Shown in pieces: positions 3,345-22,708 of a stretch of DNA of 23,547 bases. Source of the DNA: a virus; IMG/VR virus record IMGVR_UViG_3300027736_000256, positions 1 through 23,547 of that record. The stretch is one strand, 5' to 3'. Below the pieces are notes generated by a model. The model was not told the origin of the DNA. It worked only from the letters and a program-made list of their open reading frames with translations, and made no database searches. The position numbers and the translations under genes were made by a program. Numbering within the stretch: position 1 is the stretch's first letter; the number at the start of each line of letters is the position of its first letter.

Positions 3345-3371
3345 TATCTAACCATACAAAAACGAAAAGTT
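3345..3371 (-). promoter_or_regulatory. Phage late promoter element P6
   Basis: On the minus strand AACTTTT lies at the upstream end and GTTAGATA at 3352-3345, with 16 nt between AAC and GTTAGATA. Spacing and sequence match the copies upstream of terS, the scaffold gene and the Cys-rich gene. The box ends 15 nt before the ATG at 3329. The promoter role is inferred from recurrence and position. Confidence 0.75.
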
Positions 3372-3381
3372 ATTGACGGTA

Positions 3382-3783
3382 TTAGTTTTTTCTTAGTTCT
3401 GCAACCACCTCTACAACTACATCTTTTACTAATGCTTTTGTGTAATTTGCAATCAATCTATCTATGCTTACATCTTGTAAAGCTTTAATTGCATAGTTAA
3501 ACTTATTGGGATATCTTTTTTTAATCGTTGCAGTTGTTCCACTACCTTCTCCATATGGGTTATTCCAATATCTACCATAGTTTGCACCTGGTGGTGCGTA
3601 ATCAACCTTTACTCTTGCTCGTTTAGATACGGCATCAAAAGTAATCATTCTATTAGTTGTATTAAAACTTTTAATAGTATCTCTTAGATTGCCTGTTTTA
3701 ACAGGAGCACCTGCAGCAGTTAAAGTTTTAAGTTGTTCTGCAATTGCAACTAATTCAGGAGTAGATTTTGATATTCTTGCCAT
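3382..3783 (-). CDS. Neck / head-tail joining protein candidate (HK97 gp10-like), 133 aa
   Basis: The N-terminus is a helix (MARISKSTPELVAIAEQLKT), followed by APVKTGNLRDTI. A xPVxTGxLRxSI-type motif is typical of HK97 gp10-like neck and tail-completion proteins. A beta segment follows (RARVKVDYAPPGANYGRYWN), and the protein ends in a charged helix. Size is usual for this class. It lies 11 nt after the tail-terminator candidate and is followed by promoter P6, so it is probably the last gene of the P5 transcript. The motif and context make a head-tail joining role likely, but the assignment is by eye. Confidence 0.65.
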   Translation of the reverse strand: MARISKSTPELVAIAEQLKTLTAAGAPVKTGNLRDTIKSFNTTNRMITFDAVSKRARVKVDYAPPGANYGRYWNNPYGEGSGTTATIKKRYPNKFNYAIKALQDVSIDRLIANYTKALVKDVVVEVVAELRKN

Positions 3784-3794
3784 GGTATCCTAAT

Positions 3795-4325
3795 TTAATA
3801 AGACCCACTAGGATATAAGTTATATAAACATCTAGGTCTATCGTTATGTGTTGTAAGTGTAAATGTAGAAACCCAACCTGCTAATCCATTATTAAATCTA
3901 TCCATAAATGGTTCGTTTGTAATTTCTGAATTGATTGCAAAACTTTCTAAACTATATTGTGTATATGAAACTAAATCATTTACAATACCTAATGTATTTG
4001 CATGAATGTCAACTACATCATTTACACCTTGAAATGGCACATCTTGTGCATTTGTTCTAGGTTCACTTTCGTTATTCTTATTCTTTATTTTATCTGCAAT
4101 TATTAACTGAATTATATACTCAGTCGTAGTTGGTGTAAAGTTTGCAGCTAAAATACTTACATTACCCAAAGTATAAAATGGATATTCAATTGTATCAATT
4201 TCATAAATATCACCCTGTTGCACTTGTGTGATTGAGGGGTGATTTTGCATTATAGTCTTAAAATAATCTAATACATTATAATACAGAGTATAATTGACAC
4301 CAGCATTGTTTTGTAAATATGACAT
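3795..4325 (-). CDS. Tail terminator / tail completion protein candidate, 176 aa
   Basis: The N-terminus contains NYTLYYNVLDYFKTIMQNHP and then GDIYEIDTIEYPFYTLGN, a helix followed by beta strands as in small tail-terminator proteins. It continues with EYIIQLIIADKIKNKNNESE, and the C-terminus has FNNGLAGWVSTFTLTTHNDR. I associate this arrangement with neck or terminator proteins of Bacteroidetes phages. It sits between the head-tail adaptor and the gp10-like gene, the usual location for a tail terminator. The start is 6 nt after the preceding stop. Function rests mainly on context; a neck protein of another type is possible. Confidence 0.6.
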   Translation of the reverse strand: MSYLQNNAGVNYTLYYNVLDYFKTIMQNHPSITQVQQGDIYEIDTIEYPFYTLGNVSILAANFTPTTTEYIIQLIIADKIKNKNNESEPRTNAQDVPFQGVNDVVDIHANTLGIVNDLVSYTQYSLESFAINSEITNEPFMDRFNNGLAGWVSTFTLTTHNDRPRCLYNLYPSGSY

Positions 4326-4331
4326 AGTTTA

Positions 4332-4850
4332 TTATAATTGAATACCACCAAAATATTGGTTTGTTTGGTCAGGATAGATTTGTGTTTGGTTTCCAACAGA
4401 TGCTAAGTATTGTGGCATAAATTGTGAATAAGATATACAATAATTTTGTAATCTTAAAGCATAATAGTCACCATTCTCTTGTGCTTTCTGTAATAGATAA
4501 TCAATCTCAGCTTTAGTAGGAGCAACACCTTGTTCAGATTGTTGTTTTACTGCACCATTTGATTTGAATTGAATATTACTAAAAGGGATATACTCAACAC
4601 ATGCATACCAAATTAAAGTATTTTTAATATGGTCGTCTAACAAATCTCTATAATAAATGCTTAGGTTTATTACATTATCGTTTTCAATTTGCACTTGTAA
4701 AAAAAAGAATAATACACTACCTAAAAGGTTTTTTAAGTATTTGTCTTGAGCTGTTCTTACAAATGGCAATAAAGCATCTGCGTCAATTGCACCTTGTAAT
4801 GGTGAGTTTTTAATAATATCGTTTCTTGATATGAATAATGGATATGCCAT
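4332..4850 (-). CDS. Head-tail adaptor/connector candidate, 172 aa
   Basis: A mostly helical protein beginning MAYPLFISRNDIIKNSPLQG, with DHIKNTLIWYACVEYIPFSN in the middle, then IQFKSNGAVKQQSEQGV and a long C-terminal helix (KAEIDYLLQKAQENGDYYAL). Helical proteins of this size directly downstream of the portal usually form the connector ring below it, and the sequence resembles the DUF6712-type connector proteins I know from Bacteroidetes phages. It starts 2 nt after the portal stop, so translational coupling is likely. The gene also contains a T8 run (4699-4706), discussed among rejected items. Confidence 0.65.
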   Translation of the reverse strand: MAYPLFISRNDIIKNSPLQGAIDADALLPFVRTAQDKYLKNLLGSVLFFFLQVQIENDNVINLSIYYRDLLDDHIKNTLIWYACVEYIPFSNIQFKSNGAVKQQSEQGVAPTKAEIDYLLQKAQENGDYYALRLQNYCISYSQFMPQYLASVGNQTQIYPDQTNQYFGGIQL

Positions 4851-4852
4851 AG

Positions 4853-6190
4853 TTATTTTTTATATATTTCGTAATCTTGTTTGAAAAATGCTGACGATAC
4901 ACCTAATGTTCCAAATGTTTCCTCACCAGGACCATTCGGGCCTCTTAAACCTCTATCACCTGGACTTGGTCTATTTTCATCTATTGTTGTTTGGTCACCA
5001 CTATCATCTGTTGTTGCAGGATTTTCTAATTCTTTATTAGTAGTATCAGCAGTTTCGTCAATAGTTTTACCTGTATCCTCTGCTTGTTGAGAAAGAATAG
5101 CTAATGGTGTCAATTGGTCAAAGTATAATTGAGTATTATTAAATCCACTAATTCTAAATGCATAATCTAATGTATTTAAGATAATGTTTTGGAATGGAGA
5201 AATAGTCATTGTTTGTAATATACTAAATGCTGTCATCATTTCCTCTGATTGTGAGGAGAAACCATTACCTTCTGTTCTAATACCAAATAGTAATGGACTT
5301 GTCACTCTATGTGCTACAAGTATTCTATCTTGTGCGTATTTTGCAACATAGTCATATTTCTCATGTAGGTTTTCAATATTGATTATATCAATTGTAGGTT
5401 TAGTAGCAGGGTCATCGTTAAATGATAACATAAATCTACCTGCGTTTCTAGTACCTGTAAACTTATGTTGGACTAAATCCTCAATAGTCTGTCTTTCCTC
5501 TGGTGCTGGAATACCTGTATTAAAGTTAATCATAGCAGAGGGTAAGAAACCATTTTCAATATTACTTAAATGTAAATTGGATAATTCAGCCTCAACATAT
5601 GAGTATTGTAATGACGATACCCAATCAGGTAAAGAATAATAATATAAGTTAGGAGTATAGTTTTTAATATAAAGTATCTCCATATTTTCTTTACTAGTTC
5701 CAAATGCAGGCACTTTCTTTTTATTTTTCATTGCTCTTTGGTCTAACCAATCTGTGCAATAATAATAGTTCTCTATTTTTGGGTTTTGATATATCTTTTC
5801 TGCTCTTAAATACTGCACCGGTATATGATACATTTTTATAATCTGTGTATGTGCATCATTCCAATAAACTTGATATGCTGCATTACCAAATAATTTTAAG
5901 TCAAATGCAACTCGTTTAGTTTCCTCTTGTGGAATTAACTTTTGTAGAGTTTCATTAAATGCTTCGTCTTTTGAGTATAAACCTTTACCAAATATTAAAT
6001 CTGCTAAACCTTCTATACATGCCGCTGTGGTTGTTGAGGTATTATTAGCAGTTGATATTGCAATAAAAAAGTCGTCATGTCCAAATACGCCAAACGGCAC
6101 ATAAGGTAAACGAGTTTTTGTATCCTCCGTTATAATAGGGAGTTGATTTGGGTTTGATGCTACGATTGAAAAGTTTTGTAATTTGTCCAT
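4853..6190 (-). CDS. Portal protein, 445 aa
   Basis: The dodecameric portal forms the DNA channel at the capsid vertex and docks the terminase. Size is right for a short portal. Recognisable parts are ACIEGLADLIFGKGL (about residues 57-71), FDLKLFGNAAYQVYW (about 96-110), LYYYSLPDWVSSLQYSYVEA and then HLSNIENGFLPSAMINFNTG in the clip/stem region, and HKFTGTRNAGRFMLSF. The helical section is followed by a low-complexity acidic tail with a few Gly-X-Y-like triplets (GDRGLRGPNGPG). It follows the 120-residue structural gene by 2 nt and precedes the adaptor. Unusually, it lies downstream of the capsid and tail-tube genes rather than next to terL. Confidence 0.85.
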   Translation of the reverse strand: MDKLQNFSIVASNPNQLPIITEDTKTRLPYVPFGVFGHDDFFIAISTANNTSTTTAACIEGLADLIFGKGLYSKDEAFNETLQKLIPQEETKRVAFDLKLFGNAAYQVYWNDAHTQIIKMYHIPVQYLRAEKIYQNPKIENYYYCTDWLDQRAMKNKKKVPAFGTSKENMEILYIKNYTPNLYYYSLPDWVSSLQYSYVEAELSNLHLSNIENGFLPSAMINFNTGIPAPEERQTIEDLVQHKFTGTRNAGRFMLSFNDDPATKPTIDIINIENLHEKYDYVAKYAQDRILVAHRVTSPLLFGIRTEGNGFSSQSEEMMTAFSILQTMTISPFQNIILNTLDYAFRISGFNNTQLYFDQLTPLAILSQQAEDTGKTIDETADTTNKELENPATTDDSGDQTTIDENRPSPGDRGLRGPNGPGEETFGTLGVSSAFFKQDYEIYKK

Positions 6191-6192
6191 GT

Positions 6193-6555
6193 TTAATCCA
6201 TTATAATATACTCATTTGTAGATACATTTGAAATATATTGGTCATTTTGTTGTTGATATATTGATTTATGTTGAGGAGCATTACTTTGAGACATATAAAC
6301 TTGCACGCTACCATGCCATATTTCAGTTGTCCCATTTAATAAAGTTGCTCTAAACTCTTGTGCAATATTTGTATTATTTATACTTGCAGTAAAAGATAAA
6401 AGACTTTCATACCCATTATAAGTTATTCCTGAAAGGGATGCAGTTGAGTTCATTTGTGTTGTCATATCTTGCAATGCCAATGTGAAATCATTTGAAGCAG
6501 TAGGTGAGGTTCTTATTGTATATCCGTTATTTGCAGATTGTATGTATGTAAGCAT
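6193..6555 (-). CDS. Small virion structural protein, 120 aa, unknown role
   Basis: A Ser/Thr/Asn-rich beta-type protein with no Cys and no enzymatic motif. Readable parts are MLTYIQSANNGYTIRTSPTA, LLSFTASINNTNIAQEFRAT, TEIWHGSVQVYMSQ and the C-terminal STNEYIIMD. It is the first gene after promoter P5 and terminator T2 and leads the portal-adaptor-neck operon, so a virion or portal-associated role is likely. I do not recognise a named family. Coding is supported by tight spacing to the portal gene and absence of a competing frame. Confidence 0.65.
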   Translation of the reverse strand: MLTYIQSANNGYTIRTSPTASNDFTLALQDMTTQMNSTASLSGITYNGYESLLSFTASINNTNIAQEFRATLLNGTTEIWHGSVQVYMSQSNAPQHKSIYQQQNDQYISNVSTNEYIIMD

Positions 6556-6584
6556 TATCTAGTGTTTATCTTGTATTACCTGTA

Positions 6585-6611
6585 TATCTAACAACATATT
6601 TTACAAAAATG
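6585..6611 (-). promoter_or_regulatory. Phage late promoter element P5 (weaker upstream box)
   Basis: TTGTTAGATA is identical to the P2 and P4 copies (GTTAGATA at 6592-6585). The upstream element is the weakest of the six: CATTTTT stands where AAC is expected. The ATG at 6555 is 29 nt downstream, the longest leader of the set. It lies directly after terminator T2. Confidence 0.6.
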
Positions 6612-6627
6612 GTAGATTATAGGCAAA

Positions 6628-6664
6628 ATAAAAGCATACCCTTATAAAAAGAGTATGCTTTTAT
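6628..6664 (-). terminator. Hairpin terminator T2 after the tail-tube gene
   Basis: ATAAAAGCATAC (6628-6639) pairs perfectly over 12 bp with GTATGCTTTTAT (6653-6664), with a short loop. On the minus strand the T-rich descending arm runs into TTTTATTTTG. It starts about 20 nt after the stop at 6686 and lies just upstream of promoter P5, so it insulates two transcription units. The T-rich flanks on both sides could make it bidirectional. Confidence 0.8.
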
Positions 6665-6685
6665 ATATTTTTTAGTGCTTATTGA

Positions 6686-7252
6686 TTAGCTATTCGCTGA
6701 CCCACTAACTACTGTTGGTGCATTTCCCATTCCTGCGAAAGGATTGGTTGCAGTGCTACCTGATAAGAATTGTGCTGGTAATGGTTCTAAACCGGTCATA
6801 GTGACAGAATAACCATAAAGGTCTCCTAATCCTGCTCCTGTTTGAATTGTTCCTGCTGTTAAATCCATACCTTTAGTTAAACCTGCTACTAATGCATCAC
6901 CATTAGTTGTCCACACAATTGCAACTGGACGGCCGTAAGCCAAAGTCTTTAATTGTGTAGTCATTTCTGCTGTTAATTTCTTTAAGTTAAGGGTTAATTC
7001 TTGTGAAAAGAATGTAGTTCCATTTTCTCTAGAGGAATTGACAGTTTCCTGATAAGCACTTGTTCCTTTAAGTTGATAATAATACACCACACTTCCACTT
7101 GGGAAAGCAGTGATATATCCAGTAGATGCGTTGTCTGTAAAAGCTGGGTCGTAAGAGCTAGACGGATAGTTCATAAAATAAACTCCCTGAATACCACCTA
7201 CGCTTTCTTTACAAACTTCCTGTCTACCTAATGTTAGTGAGCAAGTTGCCAT
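6686..7252 (-). CDS. Major tail (tube) protein candidate, 188 aa
   Basis: Starts MATCSLTLGRQEVCKESVGG and contains GVYFMNYPSSSYDPAF, YYYQLKGTSAYQETVNSSRE, NGTTFFSQELTLNLKKLTAE, TLAYGRPVAIVWTTNGDALV and DLYGYSVTMTGLEPLPAQFL. This order, with alternating strands and a terminal TMTGLEP strand, matches the abundant tail-tube-like structural protein I know from uncultured Bacteroidetes phages. Length fits a siphovirus tube protein. It lies directly after the major capsid gene, bracketed by two hairpins, which suggests tuned high-level expression. A contractile-tail tube or another repeated structural protein cannot be excluded. Confidence 0.7.
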   Translation of the reverse strand: MATCSLTLGRQEVCKESVGGIQGVYFMNYPSSSYDPAFTDNASTGYITAFPSGSVVYYYQLKGTSAYQETVNSSRENGTTFFSQELTLNLKKLTAEMTTQLKTLAYGRPVAIVWTTNGDALVAGLTKGMDLTAGTIQTGAGLGDLYGYSVTMTGLEPLPAQFLSGSTATNPFAGMGNAPTVVSGSANS

Positions 7253-7283
7253 AATATTTTGATTTAATTTTGTTTTTTATTAA

Positions 7284-7311
7284 AAAGGGTGAGTGTTTCT
7301 ACCCACCCTTT
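7284..7311 (-). terminator. Hairpin T1 after the capsid gene (terminator or attenuator)
   Basis: On the minus strand AAAGGGTGGGT pairs with ACTCACCCTTT (11 bp, one G-T wobble) around an AGAAAC loop, followed by TTAATAAAAA. It starts 14 nt after the major capsid stop and is followed by the tail-tube gene with no promoter element that I can see. It may terminate partially or protect the capsid mRNA 3' end while allowing some read-through. Confidence 0.7.
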
Positions 7312-7324
7312 AATTATTTTTTGT

Positions 7325-8296
7325 TTAGTATGCTCCGTAGTATACAATGTCCTGGCCGATGCCAAAGATAACCCCGGACGTGAAACGCATTATTGTGCGA
7401 TAATTTTGCGAGCCGTCAATGTTTGCCATATCCAATACTCTTACTTCATTGTAATCTGATAATAAACCAGTTCCAAAGTGTAGATTTGAGCGTTGCGCGA
7501 TTGCAATTTTATTTGCCGACATCCCGGGACATAATACGATTTCAACACCATTAAAGTTAAATGGTTTTTCACCCACGTTCATTTGGTTGTTCCATCCGTT
7601 TGCACCGATAGCACCACCTGCTAATGCTTGTTGGTATGCTTTTGCTACATTCGTAGAAACATACATCAACACATCCTCTTTACCATAAACTGTATCAGGT
7701 ACTGTATTCAATACAGAGTTCATTTTATCTAATACATTTGCTGAGGTCACACTACCAGAGATAACAATACTACCAGATTTTGCTGCTAATACTGCTGTTG
7801 CTCCACCTGCTGCAATAGATGCAGAGAATTGAGCTTCAAAACCAAGGAATGACCCGTTAGTTGCTGTTCCTTGCCAAATGTTTTGTTCAGTTGCCTGAGC
7901 TACGATACCACCTACATAAGAGATTAAGTAATCGTTAAAAGATTTAGGGATAGTATCAAATGCACTATATCCTAATTGTAAAGCCTCCCAAGATGCTACA
8001 AAGTTTTGCTTACATAATTCTAAGTTAACTTGTAATTCTTTAGGGACTAATACTGCTTCAGATAATGCGACACTACCTGAGGTCACAAAATCACAAGATG
8101 CATCTTGTACGATGCCGTCAACAGCAATCCTTTGGATTACCTCTTTATATTTGACATTTGGGTGTATAGTCACGTATTTGTTATCCAAAGTTTTTGCGGA
8201 TAACAAAGCTGCTGCGATATACTGGCCTGCAAACTCACCTGCGTAGGTATTCTGAGTAAATGTAGGTTGTGCTGCTAAGTTCAATGTTTTGTTCAT
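7325..8296 (-). CDS. Major capsid protein, 323 aa
   Basis: The shell subunit, expected to have an HK97-like fold. It starts MNKTLNLAAQPTFTQNTYAG and contains QYIAAALLSAKTLDNKYVTI, a basic strand with KYKEVIQRI, YLISYVGGIVAQATEQNIWQ, VLMYVSTNVAKAYQQAL, then FNFNGVEIVLCPGMSANKIA, SNLHFGTGLLSDYNEVRVLD and RFTSGVIFGIGQDIVYYGAY. The late region with NGVEIVLCPGM followed by a fluorescence of aromatic strands is typical of Bacteroidetes phage capsid proteins. Length and position after a scaffold-like gene agree. No separate protease gene is visible. The leader (AACAAACAAAAATATTTACA before ATG) is A-rich, as in Bacteroidetes translation starts. Confidence 0.85.
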   Translation of the reverse strand: MNKTLNLAAQPTFTQNTYAGEFAGQYIAAALLSAKTLDNKYVTIHPNVKYKEVIQRIAVDGIVQDASCDFVTSGSVALSEAVLVPKELQVNLELCKQNFVASWEALQLGYSAFDTIPKSFNDYLISYVGGIVAQATEQNIWQGTATNGSFLGFEAQFSASIAAGGATAVLAAKSGSIVISGSVTSANVLDKMNSVLNTVPDTVYGKEDVLMYVSTNVAKAYQQALAGGAIGANGWNNQMNVGEKPFNFNGVEIVLCPGMSANKIAIAQRSNLHFGTGLLSDYNEVRVLDMANIDGSQNYRTIMRFTSGVIFGIGQDIVYYGAY

Positions 8297-8323
8297 TGTA
8301 AATATTTTTGTTTGTTAATAATT

Positions 8324-9004
8324 TTATCTATACATCTTTGATAATACTGAGCCTTGTGGGTTATCAGTTTTCTTACCAAAGTTGTTAAAGTTTTCTTGTG
8401 AAAATCTGTTAATTTGTTCAACTGGTGCACCATCTAATTTAGGTAATTCCATTTCAACATCTTTTTCAGTTGCAATCTCTGCTGCTTTCTTATCAACTAC
8501 TTCCTCTTTAGGTTTCATTTCTGCAAACATAGACTTCATTTCAGTCATTGCTTTTTCTAATTCGTCAATTCTATAACCTAAAGTTATGATTGGGTCTTTA
8601 GTTTCATCTGTGTCCTCACCTAAAGAGTTTCTAGGGTCTTCGTCAGTTGTGTTTGGTAATGCATGTGCAATATCTGTTGTTGCATCTGCCATATCTACTG
8701 CAGTATCAGCAACTTCTGGGTTAGCTTCCTCTACATTTTCTCTTGAATTGATTTTACCATCTTTTACTTCAACTCTAATGATTACATCTTTACCTTCACT
8801 ATCTTTTAATCCGATTTCATATTCGCCGTCTGGAGCTGGAGTTTTCTTACCATCAGCATCAACAACATCTATCGTTTCGTTTAAGTCAAATGTAGGAGAT
8901 TGTAAAATTGTGCCATCTTTTGTTGTGGCGTCTGTAAAATTAACTGCTTTCTCATCTAATGATAACAAAGTAGCTATTCTATTTAATACATTTTTCGCAT
9001 TCAT
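8324..9004 (-). CDS. Capsid scaffold-like protein, 226 aa
   Basis: A very acidic, low-complexity protein. The N-terminal 90 residues include TTKDGTILQSPTFDLNETID and KTPAPDGEYEIGLKDSEGKD, a small beta domain that I associate with proteins preceding the capsid gene in Bacteroidetes phages. An acidic linker follows, then a helix (YRIDELEKAMTEMKSMFAEM, about residues 143-162) likely to form a coiled coil. The C-terminus is basic (NNFGKKTDNPQGSVLSKMYR), as expected for a capsid-binding tail of a scaffold. It is the first gene after promoter P4 and lies 27 nt before the capsid gene. Scaffold is inferred; a minor capsid or decoration role is possible. Confidence 0.65.
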   Translation of the reverse strand: MNAKNVLNRIATLLSLDEKAVNFTDATTKDGTILQSPTFDLNETIDVVDADGKKTPAPDGEYEIGLKDSEGKDVIIRVEVKDGKINSRENVEEANPEVADTAVDMADATTDIAHALPNTTDEDPRNSLGEDTDETKDPIITLGYRIDELEKAMTEMKSMFAEMKPKEEVVDKKAAEIATEKDVEMELPKLDGAPVEQINRFSQENFNNFGKKTDNPQGSVLSKMYR

Positions 9005-9019
9005 ATTGTAATGTTTAAT

Positions 9020-9046
9020 TATCTAACAATAGTAAAATTAAATGTT
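9020..9046 (-). promoter_or_regulatory. Phage late promoter element P4
   Basis: On the minus strand AACATTT sits at the upstream end and TTGTTAGATA at the downstream end, with 16 nt between AAC and GTTAGATA. The GTTAGATA box ends exactly 15 nt before the scaffold ATG, the same spacing as P2 and P6. P4 and P2 share AACATTT, the TTGTTAGATA block and a following TTAAAC. Confidence 0.8.
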
Positions 9047-9054
9047 GTTAAAAA

Positions 9055-11245: not shown

Positions 11246-11250
11246 ACTTA

Positions 11251-11871
11251 TTATTTATAATGTTCTCCTCCTACCCATAATACAAAAGACTTTCTTGTTC
11301 CCTTTGTTATTGGGGTCACTCTATGCATCATATATGAGGGAAATATAACTACTGTTCCTTTTCCTCTTGGACATTTTATTATTGCATCTCCACCTTGCCA
11401 TATTTCCAAATCACCACCTTCGTAATCATTTGTATCTGATAATTGGACAGTAATACTAACTTTTCTTTGTGATAATATACCAGGTCCTATATCTTGGTGC
11501 CATGTATAATGTCCACCATCTGTTGCATAATATTCTGTGTATTGTATTCCTTCTGGTAAATGTTTCAAATCAAATTGCCACAAAGTATTATTTGCTTCAA
11601 TTGATAAGTCCATCATTTTTTTATATAGCCACTCAAACTCACTAGTTGTTGGTATCCACTTTACAGAGGAGGTGCGTGTCTTTTTATCTATTCCACCTAC
11701 GACTGTTCCGTCATTAAATGGTAATGGGTTTACTTGGTTAGATACTTTGTGTAATTCCTCAATAGAAAATCCGTTGTCAAAATAATAATAATTTTGAGCA
11801 TCGGTTAAGTTCACAGGGTATGTGAAAAAACTATGCATAACTGCTTGATTTGGTTGTAAGTAATGTGCCAT
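11251..11871 (-). CDS. 2OG-Fe(II) oxygenase, prolyl-4-hydroxylase type, 206 aa
   Basis: Uses 2-oxoglutarate, O2 and Fe(II) to hydroxylate a substrate, commonly proline. Motifs are complete: the iron triad is H125-x-D127 in HYTWHQDIGPG and H183 in SYMMHRVTPI; R193 in GTRKSFVLWVGG is placed to bind the 2-oxoglutarate carboxylate. YEGGDLEIWQ (150-159) is the usual strand of the P4H/PKHD jelly-roll. Length fits a minimal catalytic domain without accessory regions. It is the first gene after P3 and starts the modification operon, directly downstream of the fibre operon that contains a collagen-like protein. A substrate in phage collagen is a hypothesis; nucleotide, antibiotic-like or host protein substrates are alternatives. 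Confidence 0.85.
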   Translation of the reverse strand: MAHYLQPNQAVMHSFFTYPVNLTDAQNYYYFDNGFSIEELHKVSNQVNPLPFNDGTVVGGIDKKTRTSSVKWIPTTSEFEWLYKKMMDLSIEANNTLWQFDLKHLPEGIQYTEYYATDGGHYTWHQDIGPGILSQRKVSITVQLSDTNDYEGGDLEIWQGGDAIIKCPRGKGTVVIFPSYMMHRVTPITKGTRKSFVLWVGGEHYK

Positions 11872-11890
11872 TAAATATGCCTTTTATACA

Positions 11891-12476: not shown

Positions 12477-14156
12477 TTAGTTAGATTTTAATATATCTAA
12501 TTCTGCTTTTAATTCTTGCACTGCTTTTAATAGAATACCAATTACTGACGGTATGTCCATTCTATTTTGACTTAGACCACTTAGTTCTATTGGTGTATCC
12601 TCAGCAATAAAACCAATGTGTGGAGTAAATGTATCACCATTATAATAAAACTCTACTACTGTAGTTTGACCAATTAAGTCCAAAGCATTCTTAGTAAATG
12701 TTGTAATGTTATTCTTAAAATCTCTACTACTATTTTGATAAAATGCATCTGCGTAAATAGTATTACCACTTACATAAACAGAAGCATTTGAGGTTGCAGA
12801 GTTAGAGGTTCCATTTGCTAATAAAATATATCCTGCTGTTGACGGAGATATTGACGAAAAACCTGGACCTGTTGGACCCGTTGGGCCTGTTGGGCCAGCA
12901 GGACCTGTATTACCAGTTGCTCCCGTAGGACCTGTTCCACCTGCAGGTCCAGTTGGGCCTAATGGACCCGTTGGGCCTGTTGGACCAGTTCCACCTGGTG
13001 TTCCTTGAGGACCAGTAGGGCCGGTTGGACCAGTAGGGCCGGTTGGGCCTGCACCTCCATTTGTTCCTGCATTACCTTGCAAACCTTGTAAACCAGGATT
13101 ACCTGGAAAACCTTGTGAGCCTTGGTCTCCTTTTTGTCCGTATCCACCTTGCAAACCTTGTATACCCGGTGTACCTGGACTTCCTGTTCCTAAATTACCT
13201 TGAATACCTTGAAATCCTTGTGTTCCTTGTGCCCCTTGAAAACCTTGTGTTCCACTACCTGTATCTCCCTTCTGTCCGCTAGGGCCTTGCAAACCTGGAC
13301 CACCTGGACCTCCTGGTCCACCTTGTAAACCCTGACTACCACTTGGGCCTTGTATACCTGGACTTCCTGCACCTATATTACCTTGCAAACCTTGCAAACC
13401 TTGAATACTTTGACCTGTAAAACCTTGGAAACCATAGAAACCCTGCAAACCTGGAGGGCCTGTTGGTCCAGGTCCTGCTTGTATTCCTTGCGAGCCTGAC
13501 GGGCCTTGTATTCCTTGAAAACCTAAATCTCCCTGAATACCCTGACTACCACTAACACCTTGTATTCCAGTATTACCTTGTTGTCCGCTAGGGCCTTGCA
13601 CACCTGGGTCTCCTTTAGTTCCAGGTCCTCCTTGCAATCCTTGACTACCACTAGGGCCTTGAATACCTTGAAAACCTAAATCACCTTGTATACCTTGACT
13701 GCCAGTAATACCTTGTAGTCCAGTATCACCTTTTTGACCACTTGGGCCTTGCACACCTGGTCCTCCCGGTGTTCCACCACTACCAGCTTGACCACTAAAT
13801 CCTTGCAATCCTTGTGTTCCATTACTACCACTTATACCTTGAATACCTTGTATGCTTAAACCTTGTGTTCCTTGCAGACCTTGTGCACCTTGTAAAGATA
13901 TTGACGAGGTTGATACTGCTTGATTATATCCATTACTATCACCTAACCAAATATAATTAGTAGGTAATTGTGCAGTCATAGTTCCACTAATGATTTGATT
14001 ACCTACAAATGTATTACTACCACTTAACAAAGCACTACTTGTAATCCAACTATCGTTTAAGTCTCTAACTGCTGATGCAGATATACCACCATAGACATTT
14101 GTAAAGTAAGTTGCGTTAGACGCAGATATAAGTTGTTGTTTTGTGTATTGAGCCAT
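12477..14156 (-). CDS. Collagen-like tail fibre with S74 intramolecular chaperone, 559 aa
   Basis: Three parts are visible. Residues 1-85 are an anchor resembling the N-terminus of the upstream fibre ([20 protein letters not shown], then [15 protein letters not shown]). About 88-432 are Gly-X-Y collagen-like triplets, Gln-rich first (GLQGIQG), then GPTGPTG repeats. About 476-559 are a peptidase S74 endosialidase-type chaperone domain: [10 protein letters not shown] has S476 and K481, five residues apart like the Ser-Lys dyad, followed by [10 protein letters not shown] and a C-terminal coiled coil ([13 protein letters not shown]). Such domains promote trimerisation and cleave themselves off. 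Coding frame is clear; the repeats also open spurious ORFs in other frames. It is probably a trimeric receptor-binding fibre. Confidence 0.9.
12861..13895 (-). repeat. Collagen-like Gly-X-Y repeat region
   Basis: This covers the triplet-repeat part of the 559-residue fibre. It includes a 51-residue (153 bp) tandem duplication: residues 134-184 and 185-235 both run GVQGPSGQ...[16 protein letters not shown], at about 13757-13605 and 13604-13452. The last third, residues 371-432, is dominated by GPT triplets. Such repeats are prone to length change by recombination. Confidence 0.85.
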
Positions 14157-17100: not shown

Positions 17101-18716
17101 GTTTGTTGTCCTGCATTACCTTGTAAATAAGTTCCGTTTGGAAAGTTTATTGCTCCACTTATATTCTGGTTTCCGTTAAATGTATTACTTCCAGTTGTTG
17201 CAAAACTACCTGTTTCAAATACACTACCCGTTTGAATATAGGGTTGTAATTCAGTTGCTATATTTTGGTATGTATCATATGTTAATATTCCACCACTTGT
17301 AAATGTTGCTACATACGACCCAGTTGTTTGTTGAATACCACCTAATGATACATCTATTTGGTCTGCGTAAAATGTTCCACTTTGATATATACTACCACTT
17401 GCAGTTATTTTCTCATCTGCTCTTATACTTATTTGCTTTTGATTTGCGTATGTAGTCACTAAAACATAAGTCTCATCATTACCTAAGAATAAATTACCAC
17501 CACTTGCAGTAATATGTGTATCAGTTGCTGCAGTATTGTATATTCCTAAAGTTCTAGCATCATTCAAATCAGGTTGTAAAGTTATACTACCTGTTCCTTT
17601 CATTGCATCTGTCACTATTAAAGAAGCACTTATGATTTGCTCACCAACAAATGTATTACTACCAGTTGTTGCATAACTTCCAGTTGCGTCTATTAAACTA
17701 TTTACCTTAGCATCATTACTTTGTGTATATTCGTTAAATGATGCAGTTGTTGTATAGTCCGTGCTACCACTCACATCAGGAATATTTACACTAAATTGTG
17801 TTGTATTACCTTTTGTGAATGTTAAGTTTCTACTACCTGTGTCAAAAGATGCAGTGTATAAAGCTAAACTTGCACTTGTGTCTAAATCAGTAATTGTTGT
17901 TCCTACACTACTAGAATATGAATTAAAGTTAATATTGTTTAATGATATAACCGAAGCTGATAAGTAAATACCTTGTCCTGGGTTATGTGAGGTTATGTTA
18001 ATACTACCACTATTATTGTCAATTGATATTGCAGAGTTTGCAAATTGTTCTATGATAATATCGTTTGCAGTAAAGTTTCTTAGTTGGACACCTTGTTGTG
18101 AGTCTAATAAAGTAATGTCATTTCCTGCATCTACAATTCTAAAACTACCTTCACCTATGTCAATAAAGTTTGTTCCACTAATATATAAGTCACCATTTAT
18201 GTGTTGGTCTCCTATAAAATTATTGCTACCTGTTGTTGCATAACTTCCAGTTTTAGCTATTAAACTATTTACCTTAGCGTCATTTGATGCAGTATAAGCA
18301 TTAAAAGAAGCTGAGTCCAATGCATTTACACTAACGATTGCAACACCTGCTGCAATGTATGCAGAGATTGCACTACCAGAAAAGTTCATTGATACTGCGT
18401 TTCCAACAGGCACACCCTCATCTAAAATTGGTAATGCTATTGAGGAGGTCACATTTGTTAATCTACTACCATCACCTATAAAGATAGATGCTGATACAAA
18501 AGACGATGCAGATATTGCTGTAAAGTTATTTGTTTGAGTAAATGTATTTGTTAAATCAGTTCTTGCAAACGACCCCGTATCATTACTATCTACTAATGTA
18601 TCTATGACATCTGTATTGTAATTTCTAAGTATTTCCGGCGTAATATAATTTGAGTTATTATCTGGAAACGATGCTTGGTTTTCTGCTTCTAATTGTGCTT
18701 TTGTAAGTATTGGCAT
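14166..18716 (-). CDS. Giant tail fibre with YadA-like head repeats, 1516 aa
   Basis: The N-terminal anchor reads MPILTKAQLEAENQASFPDN. Five widely spaced copies of the module xATTGSNxFxGxQxIxG occur near residues 159, 348, 504, 757 and 1058. Two arrays of YadA-head-like repeats (about 1097-1216 and 1272-1400; units such as NNTTGNQNVAIGIGALNNN) each end with a similar cap, NIILADGNGNLRARY and NIILSDGYGNIKAQY, so the module has been duplicated. The C-terminal 75 residues (GNPGTVTVSNSLVTANSIIM to VVGWFIINNS) match a C-terminal domain I know from marine phage fibres. YadA-like head repeats form trimeric beta-prisms. It is the second gene of the fibre operon and probably contacts the host surface. 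Confidence 0.85.
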   Translation of the reverse strand: MPILTKAQLEAENQASFPDNNSNYITPEILRNYNTDVIDTLVDSNDTGSFARTDLTNTFTQTNNFTAISASSFVSASIFIGDGSRLTNVTSSIALPILDEGVPVGNAVSMNFSGSAISAYIAAGVAIVSVNALDSASFNAYTASNDAKVNSLIAKTGSYATTGSNNFIGDQHINGDLYISGTNFIDIGEGSFRIVDAGNDITLLDSQQGVQLRNFTANDIIIEQFANSAISIDNNSGSINITSHNPGQGIYLSASVISLNNINFNSYSSSVGTTITDLDTSASLALYTASFDTGSRNLTFTKGNTTQFSVNIPDVSGSTDYTTTASFNEYTQSNDAKVNSLIDATGSYATTGSNTFVGEQIISASLIVTDAMKGTGSITLQPDLNDARTLGIYNTAATDTHITASGGNLFLGNDETYVLVTTYANQKQISIRADEKITASGSIYQSGTFYADQIDVSLGGIQQTTGSYVATFTSGGILTYDTYQNIATELQPYIQTGSVFETGSFATTGSNTFNGNQNISGAINFPNGTYLQGNAGQQTELNSPTRSLKISSGVNTTFAAGDTMRISGSSNIIFSSVRTIISGSLIQSSSNSITGLFGNVGTLIKNRVAIQGGDGVDAPTPRLRLEATDGRTQILGGTFQLIDSTAMTGSAASLGAQYQAYANPISGAASINMGVYTPDTFDTDIELYINTDINGTVFYDFDNVSAFDYIPFLSIAPNLGDNPAPVFTRGLDVTGSLYVSGNIYATNLTGSTIETGSFATTGSNQFNGDQTITGSLNVKTITTFDPAGTTPSDPNASTGTLLVFPYGEYASGNPNMDTIANSAGTGWVMSGPGITDGTVISAGYGNDGVEVNITSGNVVSGSSYIGTGPYYPYLVISGSAFSNQSFYSPQGFFVQNLDGTGLQYGGIAINNNGADPQNIFSTMAVGNGTPEGQLQFGVSSYTPMYPGEPVPTFYAGGYYDAGLGYGSTDTTFTFYSSSIQVWHPIQFKTPNAPIQVTGSINISNQLTTNLFTASLQNGYAWVGNSSGKNYQVATSSFGGGSTPAGTVSSSAQILNYGIFATTGSNAFFGNQSIKGNLTLSGSLTISGSTTFVSKNGGTSNVFLGGGALNNNTTGIGNTAIGQSALGSNTIGSNNFAFGTNALASNIDGNANFVAGADAGRFASGNSNVFIGPSSGQYASGSGNVFIGGSSGQYITGSGNTIIGAYTGTAGTPLNYNIILADGNGNLRARYNSGWEFPGISINGNTTITGSLIQSGAVSIQGDITFINKNGATDNVILGLNAMSNITGSVGSSIAIGDGAMRYASVTQQNVAIGKNALSVTSGSNNFALGSEAMANNTTGNQNVAIGIGALNNNTTGQLNVSIGNDSGFVNVSGSRNTYIGAGAGNNHYGSATVIIGGYSGGGQILNDNIILSDGYGNIKAQYSASGSAWLMKDTVNFTTGSNSQAGTATLDGGNPGTVTVSNSLVTANSIIMLTKQTLAHPNGYVAVSAKSAGSFTITSNHNGDTDVVGWFIINNS
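14517..14903 (-). repeat. YadA-head-like repeat array 2 in the giant fibre
   Basis: Residues about 1272-1400. Repeated NxAIGxxAM/L-type units (SSIAIGDGAM, NVAIGKNAL, NNFALGSEAM, NVAIGIGAL, NVSIGNDSG, NTYIGAGAG) are followed by the cap DNIILSDGYGNIKAQY. It is homologous in layout to array 1 but diverged. Confidence 0.75.
15069..15428 (-). repeat. YadA-head-like repeat array 1 in the giant fibre
   Basis: Residues about 1097-1216. Units include NTAIGQSALG, NNFAFGTNAL and NFVAGADAGR. A 16-residue (48 bp) near-identical tandem stretch, ASGxGNVFIGxSSGQY, spans about 15129-15233. The array ends in the cap NIILADGNGNLRARY. Confidence 0.75.
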
Positions 18717-18722
18717 ATTTTA

Positions 18723-19004
18723 TTATTGATATTGTATTCTAAATCCTGGACTAAATCCAAAACTAAACCCACCTGTTAATATTTGGAATGGTATAACTCC
18801 GTTGATTAAACCTATACCTTGTGATATTAAAGCACCACCACAGCAATCTCTGCCGTATCTGTCCTCATGTATACACAGACAACCTCTACGATTATTCTTT
18901 GGACTTGATAAACCCTGAGTAGGGCCTATGTATATACCACTTGCATTCTGTCTATTGACTGAATATCTAAGGTTTCCGTTCCTGCTATTGCTCCAAATTG
19001 CCAT
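18723..19004 (-). CDS. Cys-rich small protein, 93 aa, head of the fibre operon
   Basis: Starts MAIWSNSRNGNLRYSVNRQN. The middle has GCLCIHEDRYGRDCCGGALI with Cys at 42, 44, 54 and 55, followed by SQGIGLINGV and a hydrophobic Phe/Gly-rich C-terminus (FQILTGGFSFGFSPGFRIQY). CxC plus CC, together with the following ISQGIG, recalls short conserved proteins I have seen in Bacteroidetes phages, though I cannot name a family. No transmembrane segment is convincing. It is preceded by P2 (GTTAGATA ending 15 nt before the ATG) and followed 6 nt later by the giant fibre gene. The four Cys may bind metal or form disulfides; a small virion or fibre-assembly protein is plausible. Confidence 0.6.
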   Translation of the reverse strand: MAIWSNSRNGNLRYSVNRQNASGIYIGPTQGLSSPKNNRRGCLCIHEDRYGRDCCGGALISQGIGLINGVIPFQILTGGFSFGFSPGFRIQYQ

Positions 19005-19019
19005 TAAAGGTAAGTTTAA

Positions 19020-19046
19020 TATCTAACAACGGAAAAACCAAATGTT
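19020..19046 (-). promoter_or_regulatory. Phage late promoter element P2
   Basis: ACAACATTT is upstream and TTGTTAGATA downstream on the minus strand, with AAC-N16-GTTAGATA spacing. It is the closest match to P4, and both have a 15-nt gap to the ATG. It would drive the fibre operon. It lies just past the stop of the frameshift product. Confidence 0.8.
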
Positions 19047-19051
19047 GTGGG

Positions 19052-19821
19052 TTATCTTATAGATTTCATTGCTTCCTTATGCATTAAGTCATTCATAAAA
19101 GCTTTATCCGATTTATATGCCAATAATAATAAGCATTTCTCTAATGGTTGATTAACTACTATATCTATTTTTTCAATATCTCCATTCGCGAGTTCAACAA
19201 TTGTTGCATAACTTTTCCACTTCTTGCCAAAATTGGCTTGAGTTTTACTGGAATATCCGCCATCGCTATCGTAGAGTTCAGGGTATAATTCAGTAAGTCC
19301 ATTAACAAATTGACAAAAAAAAAGAGACAACCGAAATGCACATCCATACTTACCTCTAACCACTTAGTATCATCTATTACTCCATCATAAGGTTTAATAG
19401 TATAGGTTTGATTTTTCTTTTTAGTTTCTATTGGCCTGTATAGTATAGACATTATCTTTGGCCAATTCTTATCTATTGTAAGTGTTTCGTATTTAGTTAT
19501 GTCAGCGTATGCACCATAAGTCATTTGAGATAAGTTAGGTTCAAATCCATATTCAATATCTCCAATCTTAATAAACCTTTGTAATGGTAAATCTACTTTA
19601 GACATAAACCCATGCAACTTATTTTTTATTTTATTGTATGTGTCAATTGGTAATGCTTGTATCTCCTCTGCCGTTAAATTACATAAGTGGTTTAATACAA
19701 AGGCATCTTGTGCATCTACATCATCTTTATAGTTTTCCATATCTAAATGTAATGCAAGATATTGTTTTAAGGTTATATCTTTCCAGCTATCTGGTGTTGT
19801 TATTGTTATTGTCTTTTTCAT
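19052..19821 (-). CDS. Long -1 frameshift product, 256 aa (tail assembly chaperone-like)
   Basis: If the ribosome slips back one base in the T run at 19315-19323, the first 169 residues of the upstream frame join 87 residues of the -1 frame. The -1 frame has coding character: NFGKKWKSYATIVELANGDI and EKCLLLLAYKSDKAFMNDL, a pattern I associate with phage proteins near the tail genes. A long and a short form sharing an N-terminus is the lambda gpG/gpGT arrangement, which chaperones tape-measure and tube assembly. The function is inferred; no tape measure gene is in the window. Sequencing error in the T run is the main alternative. Confidence 0.6.
19165..19821 (-). CDS. Short 0-frame product, 218 aa (tail assembly chaperone-like)
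   Basis: Starts MKKTITITTPDSWKDITLKQ, then YLALHLDMENYKDDVDAQDA. It contains NWPKIMSILYRPIETKKKNQ, then TYTIKPYDG, DVHFGCLFFFVNLL, and continues in frame for about 50 residues after the T run to SRMEILKK. That tail keeps coding-like composition, so it is probably a genuine product rather than read-through noise. It starts 1 nt after the small coiled-coil gene, in the P1 transcript. See the frameshift entry for the longer form sharing residues 1-169. I infer the chaperone role from the two-product layout, not from a direct family match. Confidence 0.65.
   Translation of the reverse strand: MKKTITITTPDSWKDITLKQYLALHLDMENYKDDVDAQDAFVLNHLCNLTAEEIQALPIDTYNKIKNKLHGFMSKVDLPLQRFIKIGDIEYGFEPNLSQMTYGAYADITKYETLTIDKNWPKIMSILYRPIETKKKNQTYTIKPYDGVIDDTKWLEVSMDVHFGCLFFFVNLLMDLLNYTLNSTIAMADIPVKLKPILARSGKVMQQLLNSRMEILKK
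19315..19323 (-). other. Probable programmed -1 frameshift site (T9 run)
   Basis: The coding strand reads CTC TTT TTT TTT GTC in frame 0. The last seven Ts are a T TTT TTT heptamer in the right register: both tRNAs can slip back onto identical TTT codons. After slipping, TGT CAA TTT opens an 87-codon frame. I found no convincing downstream pseudoknot. Confidence 0.65.
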
Positions 19822-19822
19822 A

Positions 19823-20032
19823 TTAGTTGTTGTGGTTATCGTTATTGTATGGTTTCATAAATATCATTATCTGTGCTCTCAATGCTTTAACCTTTGCTTC
19901 CTCATTTAATAGTTTAGCATTCATTGCAATTAAGTTAGCATTCTGTGTTTCGTTTATGTTTAGTAATTCTCTAATTAAACTTGCCATTTGTTCTATCTGT
20001 TCCTCTGTGTATTTAGTATTCATAATAGTCAT
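19823..20032 (-). CDS. Small coiled-coil protein, 69 aa
   Basis: Almost entirely helical with Ala, Leu, Asn and Glu: EEQIEQMASLIRELLNINET, then NANLIAMNAKLLNEEAKVKA, then a short hydrophobic/basic end. Heptad-like spacing of Leu and Ile suggests a coiled coil. It overlaps the zinc-ribbon gene by 20 bp if the first Met is used, or 11 bp if M4 is. It sits between the zinc-ribbon protein and the frameshift gene. Short coiled-coil proteins near terminase or tail genes are common, with unknown roles. Confidence 0.55.
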   Translation of the reverse strand: MTIMNTKYTEEQIEQMASLIRELLNINETQNANLIAMNAKLLNEEAKVKALRAQIMIFMKPYNNDNHNN

Positions 20033-20474
20033 GTGTATTTGGGTAATCCTTTGTAATTGTTTTTTTACTCTTTATCTTTTTAGCTTCTGCTGTTTCTTTA
20101 TCTCTCCTGTCATTTATCCATTTCATTAAAACTGCATCATTCATTATCTCATCTAACTTAGTCTTATAGTATTCTTGCCACTCCTGTCTTTCTTTCATCT
20201 TATGTAGTTTTGACCTTAGAGGATAAAATCTTGTATGGTAATCATGGTTAGGGCCTTGATATGGATATGATTGTTTCTTTTCATAGGTAGTTCTTTTCCT
20301 TTGTTCAATTACCTTTTGCTTTGTATTCAAACATGCATTACAACTATACCTTGGTTTCATTGTGTGAAATGATATACCACATTCTTTACATTCTCTTTGC
20401 TCACCATCTTTATGATTAAACTTTACATTCCATAATCCCATATAACTTATTATTTTATATAATACTGATAACAT
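20013..20474 (-). CDS. Zinc-ribbon protein downstream of terminase, 153 aa
   Basis: Cys at 29, 32, 45 and 48 form CxxC-x12-CxxC (CKECGISFHTMKPRYSCNAC), a zinc ribbon. The rest is highly charged and Lys/Glu-rich (VIEQRKRTTYEKKQ, then HKMKERQEWQEYYKTKLDEI), with KKIKSKKTITKDYPNTH near the end. The first Met overlaps terL by 20 bp; M12 (MGLWNVKFNH) would start 13 nt after the terL stop and is a credible alternative. A basic zinc-ribbon protein suggests nucleic-acid binding, perhaps packaging or regulation. No family name is justified. Confidence 0.6.
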   Translation of the reverse strand: MLSVLYKIISYMGLWNVKFNHKDGEQRECKECGISFHTMKPRYSCNACLNTKQKVIEQRKRTTYEKKQSYPYQGPNHDYHTRFYPLRSKLHKMKERQEWQEYYKTKLDEIMNDAVLMKWINDRRDKETAEAKKIKSKKTITKDYPNTHDYYEY

Positions 20475-21636
20475 ACTTACCTGCGTTTAGTTTCTTTGCA
20501 TTCAATCTTTCCATTACACCATATCTTAAAGCATCTAATAGGTGATTGTTTGCGTCAATAGGTATGTTTGTCACGCTACCATTGCCATCGTCTATCCATT
20601 CGTAGGAGTATAATTCCTCAATCAAGTTAGTATTATTTTTTGGAATTACCAAATTAAATTGCTTAACTAAATCTATGCCCCATTGTATGCTATCTTTACC
20701 TTTCTTTACACCTCTTGCTAATGGAAACCCTCCTCTCTTTATCTCGTCTATCAGTCTTGGTTCTGCACTATCTACTACTATGATATCTTTACTATCTACA
20801 TTACCTCTAAGCAATTCTAATATCTCAGCAGTAATTAAACCCTTTTGATATATGTGTTCATTTACTATTAAACTATTACCTGCTTTCCATATACTAACTA
20901 ATGCAGTCGGGTCACTTACATATCCTATATCCATACCGAAACAAATAAAATCAGCTGTGTCCATGTCAAAACTATCTACAATCTCAAACTCATATATTTG
21001 TTTCTCATTGACTGCAAACTGGCCTAAACCATATGTCATCCAAAATCTCGGGTTGGTTTCTCTATACTTTTCAATAAATCTAACCTGCTCTATTGGTAAG
21101 TAAGGGTTTGACTTGTAAGTTGTAATAAAGGTTGCACAATCGTCTCCTGTTTGCACCTGTGATATAATCCAATGCTTAGGACTAAAACTGGGATTGAAAC
21201 TAAGTATGATTGTCCCTGTTGTTCTAATTGCTAGTTGTAAGTATTGGTCATAACTAAGTTCATTTGCTTCATCTATCCATAATACATTTCTCCTTAAACC
21301 TTTTAGCTTCTCTGCATTATCTGTTGAGAAAAACTCTATCTGACTATCGTTCTCAAATGTAAAAACCTTTTCAGTTGCCATCCATCTTTCCTCATCCCAT
21401 AAACCCATTTCATTCATTATATCCTTAAAGTCTCTTAAAGCAGAGGTTCTAAGTGCAGGGAAAGTCTTTCTTACTACTGATATCAATAACTTTTCCGATA
21501 ATGCTTTAACGATAAGGTATTGTAGTAATGCAAATGACTTACCACTTCTTGCACTACCTTGGTGTAGTTGTATTTTCTTTTGACAATCCCAAGCATTCTG
21601 AAAGGTAATGGTTGTGTTAATTTTCAACTCGCTCAT
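20455..21636 (-). CDS. terL: Terminase large subunit, 393 aa
   Basis: The packaging motor ATPase and headful nuclease. Walker A is GSARSGKS (27-34). Walker B is VLWIDEAN (118-125), with D122 and E123. The coupling motif SFNPS follows at 146-150. The RNase H-like nuclease has GMDIGY (D236), IVVDSAEPRLIDE (D289) and IDANNHLLDALRYG (D368 likely). The order and length fit PBSX/Terminase_3-type TerL. It overlaps the terS gene by 20 bp and the zinc-ribbon gene by 20 bp, so it is in the P1 transcript. The portal lies about 14 kb away rather than adjacent. Confidence 0.95.
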   Translation of the reverse strand: MSELKINTTITFQNAWDCQKKIQLHQGSARSGKSFALLQYLIVKALSEKLLISVVRKTFPALRTSALRDFKDIMNEMGLWDEERWMATEKVFTFENDSQIEFFSTDNAEKLKGLRRNVLWIDEANELSYDQYLQLAIRTTGTIILSFNPSFSPKHWIISQVQTGDDCATFITTYKSNPYLPIEQVRFIEKYRETNPRFWMTYGLGQFAVNEKQIYEFEIVDSFDMDTADFICFGMDIGYVSDPTALVSIWKAGNSLIVNEHIYQKGLITAEILELLRGNVDSKDIIVVDSAEPRLIDEIKRGGFPLARGVKKGKDSIQWGIDLVKQFNLVIPKNNTNLIEELYSYEWIDDGNGSVTNIPIDANNHLLDALRYGVMERLNAKKLNAGKYVISII

Positions 21637-21931
21637 CTGTGCCTTTAATTATATTGACTGATATTGAATGTATCTTTGCATTTATATCCATTGTCCCACT
21701 TACATCTAAACTCCTTAGCTTCGGCATTGAGTATTCCATTAGTTTCATTGCAAGTTCCATTGCTTTAACGGGGTCAGTCTTTTTTATCTCAGCTAAGTCC
21801 GTTTGTATTGTGTCTAATGTATTATTTACTGCACGAGCAATATTCAACCTCATCATTTCAGTTGTGCGGTTTAGTGCTCCCTTTGGTCTCCCATTTGCAT
21901 TTATTCTTGTATCTCCTTTAACGAAAGGCAT
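21617..21931 (-). CDS. terS: Terminase small subunit candidate, 104 aa
   Basis: Starts MPFVKGDTRINANGRPKGAL, then NRTTEMMRLNIARAVNNTLD. A basic GRPKG segment followed by a helix with NRTT is common in small terminase proteins, which recognise packaging DNA and regulate TerL. The rest is helical (DPVKAMELAMKLMEYSMPKL). It immediately precedes terL with a 20-bp overlap, the usual position. It is the first gene after promoter element P1, 25 nt from the GTTAGATA box. Low sequence conservation in terS means this rests on context plus the N-terminal motif. Confidence 0.75.
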   Translation of the reverse strand: MPFVKGDTRINANGRPKGALNRTTEMMRLNIARAVNNTLDTIQTDLAEIKKTDPVKAMELAMKLMEYSMPKLRSLDVSGTMDINAKIHSISVNIIKGTDERVEN

Positions 21932-21956
21932 ATTGTATCTTATTATATTTTACTAT

Positions 21957-21983
21957 TATCTAACACCACTAATTTATTTTGTT
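21957..21983 (-). promoter_or_regulatory. Phage late promoter element P1
   Basis: On the minus strand AAC lies at 21983-21981 and GTTAGATA at 21964-21957, 16 nt apart. The AAC box overlaps the TAA stop of the 56-residue ORF. The GTTAGATA box ends 25 nt before the terS ATG. Confidence 0.75.
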
Positions 21984-22152
21984 ATAGTAGCCGTTCATAC
22001 CCATACATCTTTACCATATTACCTTCACTATCTGCTATTATCATTACTCCTCCCATCTTATTACCTTTTAGTATAATCTGTTTATCTTTTATCCATGTCC
22101 AATTAAAGTTGAAATATGCATAATTGTAATCTATGTGGTGGTAGTTAGTCAT
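21982..22152 (-). CDS. Small ORF, 56 aa, overlapping the sigma gene and P1
   Basis: I translated this by hand: MTNYHHIDYNYAYFNFNWTW, then IKDKQIILKGNKMGGVMIIA, then DSEGNMVKMYGYERLL. It starts 8 bp inside the end of the sigma gene and fills an otherwise unexplained gap. The N-terminus is aromatic; the C-terminal half alternates hydrophobic residues as in a small beta sheet (MGGVMIIADSEGNMVKMYGY). It has no motif I can name. The overlap and the absence of other genes support translation. Confidence 0.5.
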   Translation of the reverse strand: MTNYHHIDYNYAYFNFNWTWIKDKQIILKGNKMGGVMIIADSEGNMVKMYGYERLL

Positions 22153-22708
22153 GGAATGGATTGTCTAATATGTCCTTCATATGTGACCTCATTTTTCGGA
22201 TATGTATGAAAGTAGTGCTTTTAGAAATGCCGATACTATCTGCCACTTCATTAAGGGTTTTGTCCGAATACCAATAGTCCTCATATATCATTGCAGATGC
22301 AAATTGCTTAGTCTTTTTTAGATTTTGTAATTCATTTCTAACATCGTCATAAGCTTTCATTACATCTATGTCCTTCTGCGTATCATATTCTTGCAATGGT
22401 TCGTCGTTCTCTACAAACCCTATATACTTAGTCCTATTTAATTTGGTGGTCTTATTTAACCATCTATGCTTCAGGAATGACATAGCATACATTTTATTAT
22501 AACTGTCAGCAAAGAATATCTTAGGATTACACTTCTCGTGTAAGTAAATGTAAAGTTCTTGCACCAAGTCTTCACTCTCCTCTTTTGATTTACATATGTT
22601 ATAGGCAACTTGCAACAACCATGTATTGCAAGTCCTATAAAATTGGTCTAGTCTAATAGCACATTCTGTTTGCATGCTACTTGTGACTTCGTTATACATT
22701 AGTTTCAA
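22145..22708 (-). CDS. ECF-like sigma factor, 187 aa
   Basis: Two blocks fit a two-domain sigma-70 family protein. Residues 29-58 (WLLQVAYNICKSKEESEDLV then QELYIYLHE) match region 2, where the AEDLVQE signature contacts core RNA polymerase and the -10 element. Residues 65-90 (FADSYNKMYAMSFLKHRWLN) continue region 2. Residues 149-180 (DKTLNEVADSIGISKSTTFI then HIRKMRSHMKDIL) form the region 4 helix-turn-helix that reads the -35 element. There is no region 1.1 or 3, as in ECF sigmas. It sits just upstream of P1. M1 overlaps the previous gene by 17 bp; M4 (start at 22699) is possible. I infer that it drives P1-P6. Confidence 0.75.
   Translation of the reverse strand: MKLMYNEVTSSMQTECAIRLDQFYRTCNTWLLQVAYNICKSKEESEDLVQELYIYLHEKCNPKIFFADSYNKMYAMSFLKHRWLNKTTKLNRTKYIGFVENDEPLQEYDTQKDIDVMKAYDDVRNELQNLKKTKQFASAMIYEDYWYSDKTLNEVADSIGISKSTTFIHIRKMRSHMKDILDNPFHD

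Follow-up and report, generated by a model that had tools for sequence, protein, structure and literature searches.

The comparative evidence makes it very probable that transcription in this phage family is divided between two sigma factors, i.e., that host sigma-A serves the early operon, followed by a phage-encoded ECF-like sigma factor that reads the late units via the bipartite promoter ACnA(C/T)(A/T)TTT-N11-TGTTA(A/G/T)A. We studied a stretch of 23,547 nt (the window) together with its relatives. An earlier note on the same DNA had proposed that an ECF-like sigma factor reads a late regulon of six boxes; comparative evidence supports this proposal, and we infer the direct link between sigma factor and boxes. 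According to our model, the sigma gene is located at the end of the early operon, which the host housekeeping holoenzyme would transcribe from TTTG-N20-TATnTT promoters outside the window. The phage sigma factor would then bind the host core RNA polymerase and direct it to the bipartite promoter, one copy of which stands ahead of each late unit: those for packaging, tail, scaffold-capsid, and portal as well as cassettes like that of the oxygenase. The expected start point there is a purine ~11 nt past the G of GTT, such that leaders would be short and at times absent.

Within the window, GTTAGATA occurs 8 times, compared to 1.49 copies expected by chance, and no shuffle reached 8. Six of these copies are on the strand that encodes all main window genes (minus) and start at the first coordinate given for P1 to P6 in Table 1; our recount reproduced all six positions of the earlier note exactly. 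The remaining two (plus strand, 11737 and 14331) are antisense within genes and come without the upstream half. Each of the six minus-strand copies falls between genes, as had been judged by eye before, an outcome with a chance probability of ~7e-6 given that non-coding DNA makes up ~14% of the window. The gaps from box end to ATG are 15, 15, 15, 19, 25, and 29 nt. With regard to the upstream half, AAC is found at exactly N16 in four boxes and TAC in one, the same count as reported earlier. Scanning the window for generic sigma70 promoters yielded nothing above chance.

Table 1. Predicted transcription features of the window (promoter and start site assignments are predictions).
Feature	Position	Strand	Predicted role	-35	-10	Predicted TSS	Remarks
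P1	21957..21985	-	late promoter of terS-terL	ATAACAAAA	TGTTAGAT	~21953	
P2	19020..19048	-	late promoter of Cys-rich gene and long tail gene	ACAACATTT	TGTTAGAT	~19016	
P3	11891..11919	-	late promoter of 2OG-Fe(II) oxygenase cassette	AATACTTTT	TGTTAGAT	~11887	
P4	9020..9048	-	late promoter of scaffold-like and major capsid genes	ACAACATTT	TGTTAGAT	~9016	
P5	6585..6613	-	late promoter of 120-aa leader gene and portal operon	ACCATTTTT	TGTTAGAT	~6581	
P6	3345..3373	-	late promoter of 387-aa tail gene	ATAACTTTT	GGTTAGAT	~3341	weakest of the six
Terminator-like hairpin	7291..7308	-	closes P4 unit				after major capsid gene
ECF-like sigma factor gene	22145..22699	-					184 aa from ATG 22699; 187 aa if TTG 22708 is used
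78-aa gene	22692..22928	-	candidate sigma partner				overlaps sigma gene start; SEC-C-like zinc motif

The terL gene behind P1 has a Pfam Terminase_3 match, and boxes orthologous to P1 are found in about 50 relatives. A hairpin like that after the major capsid gene also precedes the g188 orthologue in most relatives. The Cys-rich 93-aa protein (18723-19004, minus strand) is kept across the whole family with about 43-90% identity and has no Pfam or PHROG match. The 2OG-Fe(II) oxygenase gene (11251-11871, minus strand) follows closely after a gene for a GPTGPTGP-rich, collagen-like Gly-X-Y fibre (12477-14156, minus strand), for which the oxygenase could be a prolyl hydroxylase.

The putative sigma factor is composed of sigma2 helices (residues about 7-87) and sigma4 helices (about 107-173), with neither region 1.1 nor region 3. 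It matches the NCBIfam model sigma70-ECF (TIGR02937) with E=1.4e-10 and 41.1 bits (cut-off 42.9), is also just under the curated Pfam cut-off, and matches PHROG 1740 (RNA polymerase sigma factor) at 4e-7. TIGR02937 is matched at E<=0.001 by the sigma factors of 11/12 relatives as well. The AlphaFold model, computed with 12 homologues, shows two helical domains at a moderate mean pLDDT of 78 and a low-confidence linker (90-102). A sequence search for solved relatives found none; a fold search found some, its best PDB matches being the ECF sigma factors SigL, SigH, SigK, AlgU, SigW, and RpoE. Respective TM-scores are low, probably due to a differing orientation of the two domains, and the top hit has an E-value of only 5e-4. 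Profile match and predicted fold thus both back the earlier identification of an ECF-like sigma gene at 22145-22708. The protein would bind core RNA polymerase and initiate transcription at the boxes.

The 78-aa gene is located directly upstream of the sigma gene in relatives, too. Its product matches Pfam SEC-C below the cut-off (E=0.009), and P, C, C (as PCxC), and W are invariant in 58 sequences; the protein is a possible partner or regulator of the sigma factor. None of the small genes adjoining sigma has a profile match to a gp79-like inhibitor of the host holoenzyme.

When the sequences ahead of orthologous genes are aligned, a two-part element emerges, namely ACnA(C/T)(A/T)TTT at positions -21 to -13 relative to the G of GTT (-35) and TGTTA(A/G/T)A with the core TGTTA (-10). 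In total, 130 boxes from 57 phages show the same element before the terS, Cys-rich, scaffold, and g120 genes. The -35 part takes the forms ACAACATTT, ACTATTTTT, and ACCATTTTT in relatives, and the terS version of the element usually reads ACTACAAA or CTAACAAA. That is, a scan of the window and related phages, as had been suggested, finds the element to recur before orthologous genes. Of the AAC-N16-GTT layout described previously, the ECF-like bipartite spacing holds, while AAC turns out to be only one form of a longer -35.

For an independent assessment, both window strands were scanned with a matrix built on 90 unique sites, all from other phages, leaving out the window and its closest relative. 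The six window boxes rank 1, 2, 3, 5, 6, and 7, and hit no. 4 comes from P4 read on the opposite strand, as this box is nearly palindromic. The top-scoring site is P5, with ACCATTTTT in register with the family -35, such that the previous claim of a missing upstream half is wrong. P6 has the lowest score of the six (10.7), which is insufficient by itself since simulated sequence yields a few such hits.

We also scanned 15 genomes, including 14 relatives of 30-35 kb with nearly all genes on one strand, using a pooled matrix (threshold 12.5). Respective counts are partly circular because four gene positions of the same phages trained the matrix: 63 sense vs. 2 antisense sites are found in 34.8 kb of late intergenic DNA, compared to 5 sites in the ~420 kb that are coding; antisense sites total 11. 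Independent of the training are the window test and the untrained gene positions. Boxes at the latter are found for the XkdF-like capsid protease (Pfam Peptidase_S78_2), a 49-70-aa gene, g324, and g387. The oxygenase and g324 cassettes each have their own box, which suggests that inserted modules either arrive with a late promoter or gain one. The early zone holds 8 boxes in 18.9 kb (pooled matrix), which counts against our model.

The fixed orientation towards genes, expressed by the sense/antisense ratio above, also bears on the question whether the boxes might be operators of a dimeric activator or repressor instead of sigma contacts. Such a reading would fit the partly inverted repeat AAC...GTT as well as P4, which has nearly palindromic arms and scores on the opposite strand, too. 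Nevertheless, we consider it very unlikely, since the family consensus is asymmetric (ACnAYWTTT vs. TGTTA) and the late units contain scarcely any host-type promoter that could be activated (1 in 34.8 kb).

In the family as a whole, the ATG lies 11 to 51 nt from the G of GTT; the distance is exactly 11 in nine boxes and never shorter. The base at +11 is a purine in 90% of the late sites (A in 79%). This sharp lower limit argues for a start site near +11, i.e., late transcription is predicted to start 4 nt after GTTAGATA and not, as expected in the earlier note, 6-10 nt past it. Initiation at +11 would make leaders short and sometimes absent. The capsid protease gene, which was never used in training, has its box exactly 11 nt before the ATG in several phages; for these (G004:24158, G006:15615, G011:12188, and others) a leaderless message is predicted. 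In flavobacteria, only a minority of mRNAs is leaderless (5.5% in F. psychrophilum).

The closeness of the boxes to start codons, with a distance to ATG of exactly 15 nt in 3/6 window boxes, could alternatively hint at an element of translation or of the mRNA leader. We regard this as extremely improbable: the spread of 11 to 51 nt with its sharp floor reflects the limit of a start site rather than ribosome spacing, a second half of the box is found ~20 nt further upstream, and Bacteroidota do not rely on Shine-Dalgarno pairing (PMC6847099).

Relatives were collected in three ways. A TerL search provided 15 loci, a sigma-alignment search of IMG/VR provided 164 relatives (80 kept), and a wider TerL search revealed a second clade with about 45% TerL and about 40% sigma identity. 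Where loci have enough sequence, the gene order is 78-aa gene, sigma, and then terS-terL. Wherever the upstream sequence of a relative is long enough, sigma gene and boxes are both present, and the family loci without a sigma hit all start <1.7 kb before TerL. Boxes without sigma, which the earlier note had named as a check on co-occurrence, are therefore absent among family loci with enough upstream DNA. As sigma-less controls, we used two distant viral contigs and three cultured Bacteroidota phages; their 106 kb hold one sense site and three antisense sites, i.e., no enrichment. Comparing the sigma factor with named phage genomes gave no match. No member of its family was confirmed in 84,980 bacterial and archaeal genomes, such that this route provides neither a prophage form nor a host.

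Two relatives deserve separate mention. One IMG/VR contig of 62,622 bases (G014, with loci L036 and L054) contains the sigma locus twice, in differing versions ~32 kb apart, and probably represents two related phages joined in assembly. Locus L007 has a TerL 89% identical to that of the window (20455-21636) while its sigma factor is only 45% identical and its -10 type differs, which implies that TerL was exchanged independently of the sigma-promoter set.

The gaps ahead of the sigma gene in relatives contain TTTG-N20-TATnTT, often as TTTGGTA...CGTATATT(A/T) and in several cases with a full TAnnTTTG. This is close to what Bacteroidota housekeeping promoters have as their consensus, TTTG (-33) and TAnnTTTG (-7) (PMC6847099). 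Among the sense intergenic matches of TTTG-N20-TATnTT, 22/23 are within 6.5 kb upstream of sigma (P=1.6e-9, an optimistic value since the looser TATnTT pattern was chosen after reading the early gaps by eye), while antisense matches are evenly spread. A first, stricter search using TAnnTTTG gave no sense excess. In G007, a host-type promoter precedes the replication-initiation gene. This is in line with gene content, as the early genes include a replication-initiation protein and the late genes are structural. The window itself is without host-type early promoters because it starts too close to sigma. TerL is most similar to that of Bacteroides phages, which together with the Bacteroidota-type early promoters supports Bacteroidota as the probable host phylum.

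Finally, we compared the boxes within and between phages. Boxes of different genes within one phage have a common -10 extension, namely GTTAGA in the window, GTTAAA in most phages, GTTTTTA in L020 and L094, and GTTATTA in L007 and L086. Two such boxes from the same phage resemble each other more closely than shuffled pairs do, with P=0.0001 in 4/6 gene pairs and P about 0.02 in the other two. Since the co-varying boxes are different sites of the genome, shared ancestry per site is not sufficient as an explanation, while a common reader protein is.

Whether this reader might be an ECF sigma factor of the host, with the phage sigma factor doing something else, can be judged from the same data. 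Flavobacteria have multiple ECF sigma factors of their own (7 in F. psychrophilum; PMC9723704) and the AAC/GTT layout is generic among ECF promoters. On the other hand, the sole ECF-type motif mapped in F. psychrophilum has a CGT -10 core (PMC9723704), and the boxes track the phage sigma factor, are missing from related Bacteroidota phages without it, and change in concert within a phage. A host reader thus seems highly improbable to us, and we retain the phage sigma factor in this role.

Motif divergence correlates with the divergence of sigma (r=0.41), the 78-aa gene (r=0.58), and MCP (r=0.67) in a Mantel comparison, which does not single out sigma as the driver; as other genes correlate too, co-inheritance and co-evolution are inseparable on this measure. 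In the presumed -10 recognition helix of sigma, residues 73, 76, 80, and 81 differ between -10 types, as do many other positions. The extended -10 types correspond to two sigma clades plus one exception, such that the residue comparison is confounded by ancestry. The GTTATTA phage L038 keeps the usual recognition helix. It is thus suggestive that changes of the sigma helix accompany the -10 types. We tentatively propose, with somewhat more doubt than confidence, that sigma factors and promoters (GTTAAA/GTTAGA/GTTATTA/GTTTTTA) are co-diverging pairs, with sigma2 changes KH to HS/ES at 80-81 and M to F/Y at 73, and that the gene with the zinc motif encodes a dedicated sigma partner.

The best viral match, A0A6J5SM22 (Sigma70-ECF, uncultured Caudovirales phage), is 49% identical, known from automatic annotation only, and probably of the same family; our literature search found no promoter or regulon described for it. 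Likewise, literature searches found no description of a phage-encoded sigma regulon for phages of Bacteroidota. The family and its promoter, the combination with early promoters of Bacteroidota type, the differences between members, and the probable host phylum appear to be new. The family provides a predicted early-to-late switch with start sites at base level and offers a functional interpretation of a gene cluster that is widespread in viral metagenomes and unannotated. Related sigma factors with different -10 preferences lend themselves to studies of how specificity changes in ECF sigma factors, and boxes and sigma factors are candidate orthogonal promoters for Bacteroidota.

Among bacterial proteins, the ECF (group 4) sigma factors, e.g., TIGR02985 of Bacteroidetes, share the sigma2-sigma4 fold, an AAC -35, and a GTT-like -10, and give the best profile matches. 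In contrast, the sigma factor studied here is phage-borne, stays under curated cut-offs, has no adjacent gene for a membrane anti-sigma factor, and is paired with TGTTA instead of CGT. The sigma factor gp36 of E. coli phage phiEco32 similarly drives middle and late transcription from short conserved boxes. Its promoters, however, consist of a single element (tAATGTAtA), because gp36 has no clear region 4, while the family has two elements and a region 4. Salmonella phage 7-11 is alike in that its sigma factor SaPh711_gp47 uses the host core polymerase while host sigma70 reads the early genes (PMC8948821). Its late promoters are likewise bipartite with a 16-nt spacer (GTAAtg-16-aCTA) and start 6-9 nt from the box (PMC8948821), and 7-11 has no gp79-like inhibitor. 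Host phylum, promoter sequence, and gene order are different; unlike in 7-11, sigma adjoins terS and early promoters are of Bacteroidota type. The match to the ECF sigma factor of GAP52, which is related to 7-11, is a weak fold match (14% identity, E=0.036). The early/late layout thus suggests a system that follows the logic known from the late sigma systems of 7-11 and phiEco32.
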